From: Planctomycetota bacterium
Lineage (GTDB): Bacteria > Planctomycetota > Planctomycetia > Pirellulales > Pirellulaceae
Direction: 5' to 3'
NCBI GenBank assembly: GCA_029979005.1
Contig: JAPOIJ010000039.1
Location: forward strand, 1-33,206
DNA: 33,206 nucleotides
Under the pieces are notes generated by a model. That model searched no databases and was not told where the DNA came from. It saw only the letters and a list, made by a program, of their open reading frames with translations. Below, in pieces: positions 23,384 to 31,567 of the stretch (position 1 is its first letter; every line of letters begins with the position of its first letter). A program made the position numbers and the translations under genes.

Positions 23384-24139
23384 CTACGCCTCAGCGGCTA
23401 AAATTGCCATGGCTTCGTCAGATATATTGAAGTTAGCGGAAACCATCTGAACATCATCGTGGTCGTCTAAAGCTTCCATCAACTTTAAAACTTTCCTCGC
23501 ATCGTCGACTTCCAGATCAACCGTGTTTTGCGGGATGCGGGTGAGCTGTTTGGATTCACAAGGTACATCCGCTGCTTCCAGCGCGTCACTTACGTCGGTG
23601 AAAACGTCCGGCTCGCAAATAACCTCGAAGCTACCTTCATTAGCCGCGATATCCTCCGCCCCCGCTTCCAATGCAAGTTCCATCAGTTTCTCTTCATCGA
23701 TCTTGTCGGCTGAAATAACAATCAACCCTTTTCGATCGAACATGTAACTGACACAGCCCGTCGCTCCCATCTTTCCGCCACCCTTTTCAAACAGCTTACG
23801 CAACTCAGGCGCCGTTCGGTTTCGGTTGTCAGTAAGAATATCACACATGACAGCAACCCCGGCGGCAGCGTAACCTTCGTAGATGATCTCTTCGTAATCA
23901 TCTCCGCCAGTTTCACCGGCACCCTTCCGAATCGCCCGTTCGATATTGTCCTTGGGCATACTGACTGCTTTGGCATCCTGAATTGCGGTGCGCAACCGGA
24001 CATTTCCATCTGGGTCAGCACCACCTGCTTTGGCTGCAACAATAATTGCTTTTGAAAGTTTACTCCACGCCTTGCCGCGCTTGGCATTGGTCGCTGCTTT
24101 CTTATGCTTGATGTTTGCCCACTTACTGTGGCCCGCCAT
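23384..24139 (-). CDS. yebC: YebC/PmpR family protein
   Basis: The family start MAGHSKWANIKHKKAA is intact, and the three-domain length of 251 residues is normal. The family was long annotated as transcriptional regulators. More recent work on YebC and mitochondrial TACO1 points to a translation factor that helps ribosomes through proline-rich stretches. GAGGTGA precedes the ATG at a good distance. The gene is last in the minus-strand run that includes nusA, infB and rbfA, which fits a role in translation. It begins 84 bases after the stop of the HhH/H1-tail gene. A proline-rich secreted protein at 32345 would be one plausible client, but that is speculation. Confidence 0.95.
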   Translation of the reverse strand: MAGHSKWANIKHKKAATNAKRGKAWSKLSKAIIVAAKAGGADPDGNVRLRTAIQDAKAVSMPKDNIERAIRKGAGETGGDDYEEIIYEGYAAAGVAVMCDILTDNRNRTAPELRKLFEKGGGKMGATGCVSYMFDRKGLIVISADKIDEEKLMELALEAGAEDIAANEGSFEVICEPDVFTDVSDALEAADVPCESKQLTRIPQNTVDLEVDDARKVLKLMEALDDHDDVQMVSANFNISDEAMAILAAEA

Positions 24140-24223: not shown

Positions 24224-25231
24224 CTATCGGGGTTTTTTCTTTGAAAGCCGTTTTGTCGGCGATTTCTTTTTGGTTACTTTCTTAGTCGCTTTCTTCGTTA
24301 CTTTCTTTGTCGCTTTCTTTGTCGCTTTCTTCGTTACTTTCTTAGTCGCTTTCTTAACCGGCTTTGCAGTCGATTTTTTGACTGGTTTAGCTGCCGCTTT
24401 CTTTACAACCTTCTTCTTCGTTTTAACGGCAGCCTTTTTCGCGACAGGCTTTCCCTTCGCCGTAGTCTTCTTCGCCGCCGCTTTCTTCACCACGGCCTTG
24501 GCAGGCTCTTTTTTCGCAGGTGCTTTCTTCTCCGACTCTTTCTTGCGGCTGGCACGTTTGGGGAATCGCTCTTTCGCGTCACCACTGATTTTCAAGATCT
24601 TAGCTCGAATCGCGTTACTGAAAGGTGCGCTATTAAAAGCGACTGCCAGTTGATGAACCAGAATCGAAAACTCTGCTCCCTTGGCCTTTGCGATCGTTCG
24701 CTCTAAACCAGGGACACGATCTTTCTTTGACTCATCTTCGGTCACGATTCCAAGTACGTAAAACAATCGCATCAAAGAGTGATCAAGCGGAATTGAGTGG
24801 CCACCCAGCCCGTTTTGAGCCACATAGGACACAACAAATTGCGAAACGCCATTGAATTTTTGAAAGGTCTGAACGGCTTTACTAAGGTTTTCTTTCTTCA
24901 AAAAATCAAGATCGAACTGATAGTAGTGTTCAAAAACACCGTGAAGTGTCTTTTTCAAACTCTTCGCCGCCGCCGTCGGATCCGATAGATTGCGACACGA
25001 CTCTTCCAACTCGGCCACTGTTGTTACCCGGACTTCGTTCCAATCGAAATAATTCTCCTGGAGCCTCGCGAATGCATCATCCGCCGCATCAAAGGTGGAA
25101 TTCTCGAGGCAACACCCATAAATCATATGCTCCAAAACCGACCGGTTCGAAGGAGGGGTTATTACTTGATATTCTTTTTTGACGAACTTGTGCAGTTTCG
25201 TAATCAAATCAGCTCGGTTTTTCGCGGACAT
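24224..25231 (-). CDS. Degenerate HhH-GPD (endonuclease III-like) domain fused to a histone H1-like Lys/Ala tail
   Basis: Residues 20-215 resemble the HhH-GPD fold of endonuclease III. The hairpin LPGVGRK appears as FNGVSQF at 126-132, and LDHSLMR supplies Asp150. The spacing from residue 132 to 150 equals that from Lys120 to Asp138 in E. coli Nth, so the Asp is kept and the Lys is replaced by Phe. The four iron-sulfur cysteines at the end of Nth are absent. From about residue 222 the protein is almost only Lys, Ala, Thr, Val and Pro, ending in seven KKxT units, like the tails of H1-like proteins of bacteria and chlamydiae. It may bind DNA or RNA and could be a monofunctional glycosylase or a catalytically dead binder. 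It lies between rbfA and yebC. Confidence 0.85.
   Translation of the reverse strand: MSAKNRADLITKLHKFVKKEYQVITPPSNRSVLEHMIYGCCLENSTFDAADDAFARLQENYFDWNEVRVTTVAELEESCRNLSDPTAAAKSLKKTLHGVFEHYYQFDLDFLKKENLSKAVQTFQKFNGVSQFVVSYVAQNGLGGHSIPLDHSLMRLFYVLGIVTEDESKKDRVPGLERTIAKAKGAEFSILVHQLAVAFNSAPFSNAIRAKILKISGDAKERFPKRASRKKESEKKAPAKKEPAKAVVKKAAAKKTTAKGKPVAKKAAVKTKKKVVKKAAAKPVKKSTAKPVKKATKKVTKKATKKATKKVTKKATKKVTKKKSPTKRLSKKKPR
24272..24355 (-). repeat. Seven tandem 12-bp units encoding KKxT
   Basis: The region reads as seven 12-base units coding for Lys-Lys-(Ala/Val)-Thr at residues 293-320 of the HhH/H1-tail protein. The units differ at few positions, mainly the Ala/Val codon and a wobble base. Such short units expand and contract easily, so tail length may vary between strains. 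Confidence 0.9.
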
Positions 25232-25366: not shown

Positions 25367-25870
25367 TTAAACCGGATCTTCAACTGATTTGTCCGGACTT
25401 CCCTGGCCAGATTCGTGCGTTTCATCAACAGTCACGGCATCGCTAAGCGATTCCTGTGGATCGGCGGCATTGGTATCCTCAGACCCACCAGCATTCTCGG
25501 AGGCAGCTTGCTCATGCTGCTCACGCTCTGCCGGCAGCACTTCTTCAAGAATACGAGTCACCAGCAACGCATGCTGGATTCCCTTGTCAAGAACAAACTG
25601 TAACCGCGGAGTGTATCGCGTATCGATACGATTCCCAACCTTCTGCTGTAGGTAACCAGCCGAACTTTGTAGCCCGCGAATGCAGAGTCCTTGCTTTGTC
25701 TCATCTCCCATCACCGAAACATGAACCTTAGCTTGTCGCATGTCGGGAGAGACTTCGACGAGTGTCACCGTGACATCTTTGATCCTCGGGTCCTTGAGAT
25801 CAGCGATGATCGCCATACTCACAACTTCTCGGATCGCCTGAGCGGCCTTTAAAACACGACGGGAACTCAT
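25367..25870 (-). CDS. rbfA: Ribosome-binding factor A
   Basis: RbfA helps mature the 30S subunit and binds near the 5' end of 16S rRNA. The first 110 residues show the single KH-like fold, with SRRVLKAAQAIREVV at the start, DLKDPRIKDVTVTLVEVSPDMRQAKVHVSV in two conserved blocks and a region around RYTPRLQFVLD. The 167-residue length exceeds the usual 110-135 because of an acidic Glu/Asp/Ser tail of about 50 residues with no recognisable domain. It follows infB by 74 bases, the common infB-rbfA order, and precedes the HhH/H1-tail gene by 135 bases. Confidence 0.95.
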   Translation of the reverse strand: MSSRRVLKAAQAIREVVSMAIIADLKDPRIKDVTVTLVEVSPDMRQAKVHVSVMGDETKQGLCIRGLQSSAGYLQQKVGNRIDTRYTPRLQFVLDKGIQHALLVTRILEEVLPAEREQHEQAASENAGGSEDTNAADPQESLSDAVTVDETHESGQGSPDKSVEDPV

Positions 25871-25944: not shown

Positions 25945-28755
25945 CTACAGGGTTCTCGCCACTTCTTCGATCTTGTAGGCTTCGAGCGTATCACCTTCCT
26001 TGATGTCATTGAATTTTTCCAGCTTAATTCCGCACTCCATACCACGCTGGACTTCCTTAGCGTCATCGCGCTCACGCTTCAACGATTCAATCGGGTAGTC
26101 ACCGATTACCGTTTGATCACGGATGACTCGCATCCGGCATTCACGCTGAACCGAACCACGCATTACCCGGCAACCGGCAATCATTCCGGTCTTACTGACA
26201 CTAAATGTTCGCAAGACCATCGCCATGCCTAATTCAACCACTTGCTCTTCAGGTTTCAAGCGTCCCTCTAGCGTAGCCTTTAGGTCATCCGTGATCTTAT
26301 AGATCACGTCATATCGACGAATCTCAACACCAAGTTCATCCGCGAGGGACCGGGCTTCTTCATTGGCTACAACGTTAAAGCCAACAATTACGCCTGACGA
26401 AGCATGTGCCAAACGAACATCTCCGACCGAGACTCCACCGGCGAGCGATTGAAGAATCTTAATTTCAACTTCGGGATGTACGATCTTGCCGAGTTCTTTT
26501 TGAATCGCTTCAATCGAGCCTTTTACATCGGCACGAATGATGAGGTTCAAAGTCACCATGTCCTGAGAGTTACGATTCAGGTTCCCTGATTCCAGCAATT
26601 TCTGGAACTCGTCGAGGGACGTCTCAACGGACCGACCACCGACTTGCTCAACTTTACCTCGATGAACCCTTGTCGCCGCGATTTCGCGGGCCTTGGCGAC
26701 GTCATCTACCACGTAAAATTTATCACCCGCACCCGGTGCAATATCGAGTCCCGTCAGATTTACTGGAGTCGAAGGCTCCGCTTCTTTCAGTTTTTTCTTG
26801 GGACGCAACGTGTCATGCATCGCTTTTACTTTTCCAAATGCCCCGCCGCAAACAACAACATCACCCACCTTAAGAGTTCCGCCCTGAACCATAATTTTGG
26901 CGACCACTCCACGATCCGATTGTTGCTCCGCCTCCAAACATGTTCCAAAAGCAGGTCGCGATGGATTCGCTTTGTACTCGTGAAGTTCAGCGGTAACCAG
27001 AATGGTTTCTAACAAATCATCCAACCCGGTTCCGGCAATAGCACTGGTCTGAATCACTTCCGTTTCGCCACCCCACTCACTTGGCAGCAATTCATGGGTG
27101 GCTAAGTCCTGCAATGCTTTGTCTGGTGTGACTCCTGGTAAATCGATTTTGTTCAACGCAACGATGATCGGAACGCCGGCAGCCTTCGCATGGCTAATTG
27201 CTTCCTCGGTTTGAGGCATGATACCGTCGTCCGCAGCGACAACCAAAACAGCGATATCCGTGACGTTGGCACCGCGAGCTCGCATCTCTGTGAACGCTTC
27301 GTGACCCGGTGTATCAACAAAGGCAATCTTATTTTCACCCTTTCTGATTTCATACGCGCGGATGTGCTGGGTAATTCCACCTGCCTCACCCGATACAACA
27401 TCAATCCCGATCAGTGCATCCAGCAAAGATGTTTTTCCGTGATCAACGTGACCAAGGAAAGTCACAATTGGCGCTCTGGCTTCGAGAGCACCGGCGTCTT
27501 CTTGTTCAACATCGAAATCGGCAAGCAATTCATCTTCAAGCGATTGGTATTCGCGAATCTCTAATTCGATACCCAGCTCTTCGACGAGCAATTCGACCAT
27601 CTCATCTTCGATAATCGAATTGATATTCTTATTTGATTCGTCACCCAGTTGTTTGATCGCAAACAACACCTTCACTTTAGGAACACCTGCAGCTTCCGAA
27701 AACTCACGAACAGTACATGGAAGCTGGAGGACGACGTTGTCTTTCCGCGGGGCGGCTGTATTTACAGTTGGTCCCGAACGACGGCGACGGAAAGACGACT
27801 GGTTGCGAGCCGGCCTTCGGTTTTGACGAGAAGGACGTGAGCCCATGACACTGTCGTCACGACCTCCACGCTCGCGTCGGGAACCTAGACCCCGCTTTTT
27901 TGTTGATTCTTCCGAATCAATCATCGCATCGGCAGCTTTACCTTTTTTCTTCTTATTTTTAGACTTGGTGAGGTGCTCCAGCGGCGCAACACCCCCGCCG
28001 GATTTCACACTCTTAATCGCATCCTGTGGGAGCGCAATATCGGGTTTTTGAACCTTCTCACCAGATTCTTTTCGTGGCTGCGGTTGCTTAACTTCAGGCA
28101 TCGCGGCAAAACGAACGTTCGCTCCAGCAGGTTTCTTTTTAGGCGCGTCCTTCTTGGCTGCATCACCTTTAACATCCGCGCTTTGGTCGAGGTTTTTAAG
28201 CTGACGACGTGGAGCTACCCCCGGCTGACGACGTGGCATTAAGGGAGGCTTGACCGTCGGAGCACCTGTTCCAGAGGACTTTGGCTCAGCAACATTCGCC
28301 TTCGCGGGTTCTTTCGGTTTCTCTGTCGACTCTTCCGGCTTGGGCTTTACACCGCGAATTCGATCAAGCAGACCGCCGCGTTTGGCCGGGCGAGCCGGTT
28401 CCTCCGACGATGTGACCGGTGTTTCGACAGCCTCCTCAACGACTGCTTGAGATTCGACTTCCGTCTCTTCTTCAACCGCCGGGGGAGCCACGGAAACGGG
28501 CGAAACAATTTCACCAATCTTCTTTTTTGAAGCCACCGGACGCACAGGGCGCATGGGTGCGGCCACGTCAGGCTTGGGCTCCGCTTTCGAATCCTCACCT
28601 CCAGACATGAATTGCTTGACGATGGCAATCTCGTCATCTTCCAGACTTGCTAGCGCAGAGCCTTTACCCTTGATATTTGCTTTTTCACAAATCTCAAGTA
28701 ATTGCTTGTTATCAAGCCCAAGTTCTTTTGCAAACGCGTAGATGCGTACGGGCAC
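25945..28755 (-). CDS. infB: Translation initiation factor IF-2
   Basis: IF-2 is the GTPase that places initiator tRNA on the 30S subunit and promotes subunit joining. The N-terminal domain starts PVRIYAFAKELGLDNKQL, followed by about 300 low-complexity residues rich in Pro, Lys, Glu and Arg. The G domain begins with GHVDHGKT (residues 435-442 from the chosen start), then DTPGHE and NKID, and the C-terminal domains bind fMet-tRNA. The frame is open to a GTG at 28800. I prefer the GTG at 28755, which matches the usual family start and has GGAAGG nine bases upstream. It follows nusA after 230 bases, a rather long gap with a possible hairpin, and precedes rbfA. Confidence 0.97.
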   Translation of the reverse strand: MPVRIYAFAKELGLDNKQLLEICEKANIKGKGSALASLEDDEIAIVKQFMSGGEDSKAEPKPDVAAPMRPVRPVASKKKIGEIVSPVSVAPPAVEEETEVESQAVVEEAVETPVTSSEEPARPAKRGGLLDRIRGVKPKPEESTEKPKEPAKANVAEPKSSGTGAPTVKPPLMPRRQPGVAPRRQLKNLDQSADVKGDAAKKDAPKKKPAGANVRFAAMPEVKQPQPRKESGEKVQKPDIALPQDAIKSVKSGGGVAPLEHLTKSKNKKKKGKAADAMIDSEESTKKRGLGSRRERGGRDDSVMGSRPSRQNRRPARNQSSFRRRRSGPTVNTAAPRKDNVVLQLPCTVREFSEAAGVPKVKVLFAIKQLGDESNKNINSIIEDEMVELLVEELGIELEIREYQSLEDELLADFDVEQEDAGALEARAPIVTFLGHVDHGKTSLLDALIGIDVVSGEAGGITQHIRAYEIRKGENKIAFVDTPGHEAFTEMRARGANVTDIAVLVVAADDGIMPQTEEAISHAKAAGVPIIVALNKIDLPGVTPDKALQDLATHELLPSEWGGETEVIQTSAIAGTGLDDLLETILVTAELHEYKANPSRPAFGTCLEAEQQSDRGVVAKIMVQGGTLKVGDVVVCGGAFGKVKAMHDTLRPKKKLKEAEPSTPVNLTGLDIAPGAGDKFYVVDDVAKAREIAATRVHRGKVEQVGGRSVETSLDEFQKLLESGNLNRNSQDMVTLNLIIRADVKGSIEAIQKELGKIVHPEVEIKILQSLAGGVSVGDVRLAHASSGVIVGFNVVANEEARSLADELGVEIRRYDVIYKITDDLKATLEGRLKPEEQVVELGMAMVLRTFSVSKTGMIAGCRVMRGSVQRECRMRVIRDQTVIGDYPIESLKRERDDAKEVQRGMECGIKLEKFNDIKEGDTLEAYKIEEVARTL

Positions 28756-28764
28756 GTGGCGTGA

Positions 28765-28770
28765 CCTTCC
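28765..28770 (-). promoter_or_regulatory. Shine-Dalgarno site favouring the GTG start of infB at 28755
   Basis: On the minus strand GGAAGG stands nine bases before the GTG at 28755. The earlier GTG at 28800 has no comparable site at a useful distance. Confidence 0.5.
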
Positions 28771-28936
28771 TTCTTTGTTGGGCGATCCCGACTCTGACAC
28801 CAGAACCGAAGAACCGCCACCTTTTAAAAATTTGCTTTACATAAAACGTCCCCTCTGCCGAACAGTGAAAAGAAAACAACGATTTCGTTGATTTCCATAC
28901 CTGGCACAGACACGGTTATATATCCCCACGAATTAA

Positions 28937-28985: not shown

Positions 28986-30323
28986 CTACTCCGGTGAACC
29001 CTCACCTTCTGTGGGCTTTGCGGGCTCCGCCGACTCAGTTGAATCAGCAGCCGCCTCTTCGGAAGCACTCGCCGCTTGAGCTCGCAACTGCTGCTCGGCT
29101 GCGACCCGTTTCGCCTCCACGGCGGCCACCGCAGCAGCCGCTTTTTTCGCTCGTTTTTCTTCCGCTTCTCGCTCTTCCGCTTCCACGGCGAGCACGTCAG
29201 CTTGTTCCACAATGGCATCAACTTGACTTTCGGTCAAATCGCCCATCGCCATTAGATCCGGAGGCTCAATGACGGAGAGGTCATCGTAAGACAAATAACC
29301 CTCTCCCACCAGACGATTTGCCAATTCTTCGTCAACCCCTTCGAGCTTACAGAAGCCTTGAACCGCGCGGTCAATTTGCTGCTCCAACTCCCCCTGAGTC
29401 ATTATTTCAATGTCCCAAGTGCACAACTTGCTCGCCAAGCGAACATTTTGCCCGCGTTTTCCAATCGCAAGGGAGAGCTGATCTTCTCGAACCAACACAA
29501 TGGCTCGTCCCATCATTTGGCACAAAATCACCTCGTCCACTTCCGCGGGCTGCAGTGCATTAGGAATCATCTGCATTGGGTCTTCGTCAAATCGAACAAT
29601 GTCAATCCGCTCTCCAGCGAGCTCATCGATTACCATCTTGATTCGATTTCCACGCACTCCAACGCACGCTCCCACACAATCGACCTTTGAATCGATACTG
29701 CTAACCGCGACCTTCGATCGATAGCCGGGTTCCCGTGAAATGGCGTTAATCGAAATAACACCGTCGGCAATCTCCGGTATCTCATTTTCGAATAAACGCT
29801 GAACAAACACCGGGCGAGTTCGACTGAGAACTACTTTGACGCGACTCCCCTGAGCCTTTACTTCCGTAACCAGTGCTCGAACACGCTCGTTTGGCTGATG
29901 CGACTCTCCTGGAATCTGTTCACTCCGGGGCAAAATTGCCTCGATGGGGCCGAGCGTTACCGTCGTCACACGACCTTCATTCCGATGCACCGTTCCGGTT
30001 ACCAAGTCGTTAATGATCTCATTGAACTCATCTATCTGAGAATCACGTTCCGCCTCTCGCACCTTTTGGATAATGACTTGCTTCGCCGTCTGGGCACCAA
30101 TTCGCCCGATGACTTCTTCATAATCCAATTCATCCTGACCGCAACGACCCGCAATTTGCCCTGAATCTCGCTCGATAATAAATTCGATATCAGCTTCTTC
30201 GCCAAAATGCTTTCGCGCAGCGGAGACCAAGGCTGACTCAATCGCAACAAAAACAACCTCTTTCTCGATGTTTTTTTCGCGATGAAGTGAATCAACAATC
30301 CGCAAAACTTCACTGGCGTTCAT
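28986..30323 (-). CDS. nusA: Transcription termination/antitermination factor NusA
   Basis: NusA binds RNA polymerase and nascent RNA and controls pausing, termination and antitermination. The N-terminal polymerase-binding domain covers about residues 1-130, the S1 domain about 135-200, and two KH domains follow. The second KH domain includes SLAIGKRGQNVRLASKL. A helix-hairpin-helix-like region lies at about 350-380. The last 60 residues are a Glu/Ala/Lys-rich tail in place of the acidic repeats of E. coli. The 445-residue length fits bacteria outside the gamma group. Its ATG lies two bases after the stop of the upstream ABC ATPase gene, so translation is probably coupled. rimP, often the gene upstream of nusA, is missing here. 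Confidence 0.97.
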   Translation of the reverse strand: MNASEVLRIVDSLHREKNIEKEVVFVAIESALVSAARKHFGEEADIEFIIERDSGQIAGRCGQDELDYEEVIGRIGAQTAKQVIIQKVREAERDSQIDEFNEIINDLVTGTVHRNEGRVTTVTLGPIEAILPRSEQIPGESHQPNERVRALVTEVKAQGSRVKVVLSRTRPVFVQRLFENEIPEIADGVISINAISREPGYRSKVAVSSIDSKVDCVGACVGVRGNRIKMVIDELAGERIDIVRFDEDPMQMIPNALQPAEVDEVILCQMMGRAIVLVREDQLSLAIGKRGQNVRLASKLCTWDIEIMTQGELEQQIDRAVQGFCKLEGVDEELANRLVGEGYLSYDDLSVIEPPDLMAMGDLTESQVDAIVEQADVLAVEAEEREAEEKRAKKAAAAVAAVEAKRVAAEQQLRAQAASASEEAAADSTESAEPAKPTEGEGSPE

Positions 30324-30325
30324 TT

Positions 30326-31567
<1,242 letters not shown>

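Follow-up and report, generated by a model that had tools for sequence, protein, structure and literature searches.

A putative non-excising endonuclease III descendant held beside rbfA in a class of Planctomycetota

Why should a gene whose product resembles a base-excision repair enzyme stand in the middle of a cluster that serves ribosome assembly and translation? The question is raised by a stretch of 33,206 nucleotides from a member of the Pirellulaceae (contig JAPOIJ010000039.1, assembly GCA_029979005.1; hereafter the window), the minus strand of which carries, in this order, nusA (28986..30323; PF13184 and PF08529), infB for IF-2 (25945..28800; named from its translation and from matches in relatives), rbfA for ribosome-binding factor A (25367..25870; PF02033, E 1.1e-26), an ATG-started open reading frame for a protein of 335 residues, here called X (24224..25231, stop codon included), and yebC of the TACO1/YebC family (23384..24139; PF01709 and PF20772). 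The position between rbfA and yebC had been pointed out in the first-pass annotation, and the Pfam matches of both neighbours show it to be right; a place beside rbfA is unusual as well. Measured between ORF ends, 135 bp separate rbfA from X and 84 bp separate X from yebC, which is followed by a convergent glyS-like ORF (name from translation). A promoter and terminator scan of the window gave counts no higher than those in shuffled sequences; in the same scan, the lone minus-strand terminator-like site lay between infB and rbfA, with none between rbfA, X and yebC. The slot beside nusA, the usual occupant of which is rimP, holds an ABC-transporter ATPase gene here (30326-31567, minus strand), which runs in the same direction as nusA and stops 2 bp short of its start.

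What kind of protein is X? A Pfam search with it found no match at E≤1, PF00730 (HhH-GPD) included, which makes the window copy easy to overlook, and the NCBIfam model that it matches, NF053634 'monofunctional DNA glycosylase DR2438', is reached at E 6e-6 with 25.9 bits, short of the curated cut-off of 400. The fold speaks more plainly. An AF2 model of residues 1-223 (24563..25231, minus strand), made with 13 relatives, has a pLDDT of 84.7 and a pTM of 0.84, and a Foldseek search of the PDB with it ranks endonuclease III structures first (8a5f, EndoIII-1 of D. radiodurans, E 2e-5; endonuclease III 1orn, TMq 0.68). Profiles lead to the same structure: 8a5f is matched at E 1.1e-10 by profile A2, built from 31 same-class rows, and at E 7.9e-29 by profile A3, the 45 rows of which include remote relatives. 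Among these 45 members, 32 match the DR2438 model at E≤0.01 (the best at E 3.3e-25), 16 the nth model and 14 the mutY model, and Pfam recognizes the Fe-S domain PF10576 in three and PF00730 in one. X is thus shown by computation to descend from an EndoIII-1-type HhH-GPD glycosylase, and the HhH-GPD fold that had been read from the letters alone, with an unrelated fold named as the result that would overturn it, has been confirmed. Matches to U1A RNA-binding domains (E 0.07 to 1.1) were taken as chance. Since the same genome also encodes separate Nth-, AlkA- and MutY-like genes (names judged from sequence), X cannot be regarded as the enzyme on which its standard repair depends.

Has this descendant kept the chemistry of its relatives? 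The question was addressed in 119 loci of the window's class and in 40 remote relatives, 35 of which are in alignment A3 and are 17-26% identical to the window protein; the names Planctomycetia and Pirellulales used for the relatives' genomes are our assumption, resting on kinship grouping and general knowledge. Profile alignment of X with the Nth of the same genome (probabilities of 58% and 97.5%) pairs Phe132 (24836..24838) with the catalytic lysine and Asp150 (24782..24784) with the catalytic aspartate, and the details that the first-pass annotation had given for this region, namely the hairpin FNGVSQF at residues 126-132, Phe132 at the lysine position and Asp150 18 residues further on, all hold. 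The lysine that marks endonuclease III is absent from X and from the whole same-class sample (Phe in 117, Tyr in 2, Lys in none of the 119). Position 150 is occupied by Asp in 73, Asn in 19, Ser in 18, Cys in 7 and Gly in 2, which ranks it only 91st in conservation among 223 columns, and a contig labelled with the same genus as that of X has Asn there (L010). The hairpin, which reads GVS in X in place of a GxG-type motif, is no firmer: position 128 comes 104th and position 129 comes 185th, with Gly at position 128 in 82 and Thr or Ser at position 130 in 112 of the 119. The GxG-type hairpin and the Asp that define HhH-GPD enzymes are therefore not conserved in the X family, though X itself has the Asp. 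Of the 37 remote relatives with a residue at position 150, 13 have Asp, and of the 37 with one at position 132, none has Lys. By contrast, 39 canonical Nth proteins from the same family, chosen as strong matches and so biased to canonical Nth (36-75% identity to the Nth of the window's genome), have the Lys in 39, the Asp in 39 and GxG in 38 cases. The first-pass annotation had argued that Asp150 alone may suffice for excision and had staked its reading on the invariance of this residue and of the hairpin in homologues; with another residue than Asp in 46 of the 119 and a hairpin that varies as well, the argument has lost its support and the invariance does not exist.

Were these losses scattered accidents or the history of whole lineages? 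On a tree built without column 150, no fewer than 11 changes are required to explain the Asp state, six of them forced by starred branches; this is a quick tree, in which 46 of 116 inner branches are left open and L065 sits on a long branch. The Asp-less rows are clustered on it (11 changes against a mean of 36.8 in shuffles, with 0 of 500 shuffles as low). Lineages without the Asp are under purifying selection, somewhat looser in two of three identity bands: the median dN/dS was 0.052, 0.129 and 0.183 for pairs of X genes both lacking the Asp (5, 5 and 26 pairs) and 0.050, 0.081 and 0.155 for Asp pairs (12, 6 and 13 pairs), or, unmatched for identity, 0.149 (33 pairs) and 0.051 (49 pairs), in each case from pairs that are not independent and with many dS values above 1. 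The X family has thus lost catalytic residues while staying under constraint, which is the Mag2-like pattern. The four-Cys [4Fe-4S] loop is likewise missing. X has cysteines only at positions 40, 41 and 79, which leaves no Fe-S loop and agrees with the first-pass annotation, and a three-Cys form of the pattern occurs in one of the 119 same-class domains (L065); C-x(5-8)-C-x2-C-x(4-6)-C is present in 18 of the 40 remote relatives. Judged from these sequences, the cluster was probably ancestral to the X family and then lost. Taken together, it is quite likely in our judgement that X no longer excises bases, against which it counts that Asp150 is present in X itself and in 61% of the 119, and that the rows without it cluster on the tree.

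If the old catalytic positions are free to vary, what has been kept instead? Five residues of X, N65, R68, V69, His145 (24797..24799) and Lys182 (24686..24688), are each found in all 119 same-class relatives, closely followed by E66, E74 and L96 (118 each), Q139 (117) and D63 (115). Three of them lie in the motif DWNEVRV (residues 63-69, 25025..25045), and it is this motif that reaches furthest: N65 and R68 are present in all 40 remote relatives and D63 in 36, compared with His at position 145 in 15 (five with a gap) and Lys at position 182 in nine (three with a gap). Because EndoIII-1 has DWDAITL where X has DWNEVRV, N-E-x-R-V separates the X family from its nearest solved relative. The signature loop, for which model confidence is low or medium and to which the domain-only and full-length models give different folds, is a putative, unproven binding surface.

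The remainder of the protein, residues 224-335 (24227..24562), is a Lys/Ala/Thr tail (K 0.42, A 0.18) that appears disordered, block pLDDT in the full-length model being 36-44 over residues 231-330 and almost all values over residues 229-329 being below 50. The first-pass annotation had correctly described it as an H1-like Lys/Ala tail with seven KKxT units; these are consecutive and are encoded by a 12-bp tandem repeat (24277..24356; 36-bp higher order, 93% match by TRF). Its match to the histone H1-like model NF038053 hist_H1_lk has E 0.14 and 12.4 bits against a cut-off of 80. In the 117 of 119 same-class loci with complete proteins, tails measure 0-272 residues (median 101) with a median K+R content of 0.35. 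The only tail of zero length is that of L138, in a stretch of G041, where an in-frame stop follows ...KQRFP; beyond this stop the same frame encodes a full tail ending TKRLSKKKPR, which may reflect a sequencing error, a mutation or readthrough. In seven nearly identical genomes, the domains of which share 95.5-100% identity, the tails measure 95-123 residues and all end in (S/T)P(T/A)KRLSKKKPR, and the 12-bp repeat is the likely source of such length changes between close strains.

The very end of the tail, TKRLSKKKPR in X (24227..24256), behaves differently from its middle. KP(R/K) terminates 92 of 99 complete Pirellulales-type proteins and none of the 18 of families f4 and f5; composition would put it at the end in about 1%, and the triplet occurs at 0.4% of positions within tails. 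A general C-terminal signal common to many proteins of the genome is unsupported: two patterns for a TKRLSKKKPR-type ending, which cover some codon choices only, matched four times in the own genome, and X is the only long ORF among the four, the others ending frames of 6, 6 and 40 codons, at the level of backward-pattern controls. Many remote relatives have short tails or none and others have Lys/Ala-rich or Glu/Lys-rich ones, which suggests that tails arose on more than one occasion; in L098, L107 and L110, Glu/Lys-rich stretches extend to about 300 residues. Lys-rich low-complexity regions are reported in ribosomal proteins and in DNA-binding proteins alike (PMC6821194), and disordered tails have been described to modulate glycosylase-DNA interaction (PMC9266487).

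How widespread is the gene, and does it stay where it is found in the window? X has one match in its own genome, and its host is close to Mariniblastus sp. (Pirellulaceae), a contig of that title (L001) matching the domain at 100% in the search and at 99.6% in tblastn. With 193 of 199 same-family genomes, 142 of the 144 high-quality ones among them, X belongs to the core genes of a large group. Five of the six genomes without it also lack RbfA; the contig of the sixth (G074) breaks off directly behind rbfA and shows, at its edge, weak similarity (E 0.23) to the opening 15 residues of X. A recent or mobile gene is rejected by this distribution and by the finding of no plasmid record at E≤0.01. 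Retention was dropped as an argument for a role in translation, since X, RbfA and Nth are kept alike (142, 143 and 144 of 144). Across the phylum, a single-sequence search matched 264 of 392 genomes at E≤1e-3 and a profile search 295 at E≤1e-6, leaving 97 unmatched, these matches being taken as counted and inspected individually only for the loci read. A scan of one genome per species throughout bacteria and archaea, which reaches close relatives only, returned 16 loci, with planctomycete titles.

The linkage to rbfA is nearly complete within the class. An RbfA match on the same strand ends no more than 600 bp upstream of X in 118 of the 119 same-class loci, and the remaining one (L122) lies at a contig edge with just 166 bp of upstream flank; in another count it holds in 74 of 75 loci, the last one being cut off, so that the linkage spans about 30% to 100% identity. 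YebC, the family of which is reported to aid translation of proline-rich stretches, is downstream of X in 43 of the 119; 70 loci show none although their flank exceeds 1 kb, and in the remaining six the flank is short. In the 40 remote loci, IF-2 or RbfA adjoins X in 15 and YebC lies within 300 bp downstream in 10, the union being 24; L090, L106 and L112, labelled 'down', are counted as RbfA-adjacent, the stop-to-stop frame of X running into RbfA there. The other 16 have neither beside X, which counts against a connection with the ribosome, gene neighbourhood being indirect evidence in any case. Further neighbours in remote loci include hisG, maf, a gene for a release-factor domain protein and genes for TPR proteins, among others. 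A histidine-synthesis gene is unexpected beside translation genes; hisG follows X in L080, L095, L085, L097, L108 and L118, and in the first two of these the order is infB-rbfA-X-hisG-yebC.

What, then, might a disarmed repair protein be doing there? The presence of an altered repair fold beside rbfA in nearly all examined relatives of the class suggests that an old fold has been reused for another nucleic-acid job. The explanation that we tentatively prefer, at a little under an even chance, is that X is an EndoIII descendant, passed on vertically, that binds nucleic acid without excising bases and probably has a tie to ribosome assembly or translation, its gene being kept in the infB-rbfA cluster in its class and in some of its remote relatives in the phylum. 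Having abandoned base excision, the globular domain, which once gripped bent DNA and flipped out a base, would now hold a specific surface of nucleic acid or nucleoprotein and leave it uncut, and the flexible tail would add electrostatic grip. Because the end of the tail is fixed while its middle varies, a single docking site is suggested: the terminal peptide (TKRLSKKKPR here) may dock at a fixed place, with the repetitive middle as a length-tolerant linker. Given the place beside rbfA and, at some of the loci, the linkage to yebC, the most likely target would be rRNA or the assembling or translating ribosome instead of damaged DNA. That is to say, the rbfA linkage tilts the choice towards rRNA or the ribosome, itself a guess that could well fail, and away from the chromosome, a target that we find doubtful. 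Against the former it counts that the solved relatives found by Foldseek act on DNA; a Lys-rich tail, moreover, will bind DNA just as easily as RNA. It is conceivable, if rather unlikely in so specific a form, that in much of Planctomycetota a glycosylase fold has turned into an RNA-binding ribosome-assembly or translation factor, which lost excision, gained an invariant (D)xN(E/D)xR loop, settled behind rbfA and, in Pirellulales, acquired a Lys-rich arm with a conserved terminal peptide that inserts into the ribosome. Should X bind rRNA, a base-excision fold would clearly have been transferred to a task on RNA or the ribosome; should its target be DNA, X would act as a damage shield tethered to the chromosome.

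The latter thought leads to an alternative that is possible, if doubtful to us, namely that X is a non-excising damage binder, which would grip abasic or distorted DNA in the manner of Mag2 and be held on the nucleoid by its H1-like tail, its place behind rbfA providing for steady expression only. The loss of catalytic residues in the X family would fit such a protein, Mag2 structures (4b21 and 4hsb) are among the Foldseek matches, known non-catalytic relatives do bind DNA (Mag2, PMC4433238; DrEndoIII3, PMC9268735), and Lys-rich low-complexity regions are reported in DNA-binding proteins (PMC6821194). A damage binder would not readily account, however, for the disappearance of the Gln of the Nth intercalating loop (position 44 is Asn in 70 and Asp in 38 of the 119) or for a hairpin glycine kept in just 82, and linkage to rbfA from about 30% to 100% identity exceeds, in our judgement, what co-expression needs.

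Could X still be an enzyme, of the old kind or of a new one? A monofunctional glycosylase of relaxed chemistry, in which Asp150, or the Asn or Ser in its place, slowly excises a single lesion in the way of EndoIII-1, would fit with the Asp present in X, with DR2438 being the nearest curated model (matched by 32 of 45 A3 members at E≤0.01) and with the largely monofunctional activity reported for DrEndoIII1 (PMC9268735). Such an enzyme is improbable nevertheless: the Asp has repeatedly given way to Asn, Ser, Cys or Gly while the other invariant residues stayed unchanged, X remains far below the 400-bit cut-off of the DR2438 model, and the 39 canonical Nth examined show no variation at the Asp. 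An active glycosylase was accordingly rejected as the main reading, the Asp and the hairpin being variable in the X family and conserved in the Nth control. A new catalytic centre on the old scaffold, made up of N65, E66 and R68 with H145 and K182 and acting on RNA or protein, would explain why five polar or charged positions are better conserved than both of the old catalytic ones (132 and 150), yet only N65 and R68 are invariant in the remote relatives, where H145 and K182 appear in just 15 and 9 of 40, and the combination matches no known chemistry; we consider it very improbable.

How does X compare with what has been described? In one open-access library, nothing was found that joins planctomycetes with HhH-GPD, or planctomycetes with both DNA glycosylase and lysine-rich; among the literature matches listed, titles and the beginnings of abstracts do not mention an X-type protein, nor do the excerpted parts of a Rhodopirellula expression paper (PMC2754498). 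The nearest solved relative by profile and by Foldseek is EndoIII-1 of D. radiodurans (DR2438; PDB 4UNF, 8A5F and 8A5C), the DW of which aligns with residues 63-64 of X before DAITL in the one parts from NEVRV in the other. In contrast to X, which has neither Lys nor cluster, EndoIII-1 is described as active, a mostly monofunctional glycosylase with catalytic Lys and Asp and a [4Fe-4S] cluster (PMC9268735). The Lys-rich tail of X and the loss of the Asp among its relatives are both unlike EndoIII-1. With EndoIII-3 of the same species X shares the EndoIII fold and, by the same paper, X would resemble it in a lack of detectable excision combined with strong DNA binding, but EndoIII-3 has kept Lys, Asp and Fe-S cluster (PMC9268735); it was once proposed to be Deinococcus-specific, which was later doubted (PMC10523315). 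Mag2 of S. pombe, a non-catalytic HhH-GPD glycosylase homologue that binds DNA without base excision, weakly and transiently, and for which protection of AP sites has been postulated (PMC4433238), is found by Foldseek with X (4b21, E 2.9e-3; 4hsb, E 3.4e-3); unlike X, it is a yeast protein with the alkylpurine glycosylase Mag as its paralogue. For the tail, the actinobacterial topoisomerase I offers a parallel, in that a Lys-repeat C-terminal extension on a nucleic-acid enzyme is reported to give processivity (PMC7398561), on a catalytic domain other than that of X. Bacterial histone H1-like proteins (hist_H1_lk) resemble the tail in composition, whereas in X the tail is appended to a folded domain and has a conserved end of its own. 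To our knowledge, Mag2 and DrEndoIII3 are paralogues without such a signature or neighbourhood. The findings fit a protein akin to the described non-excising glycosylase homologues, but with a signature, a neighbourhood and an arm of its own.
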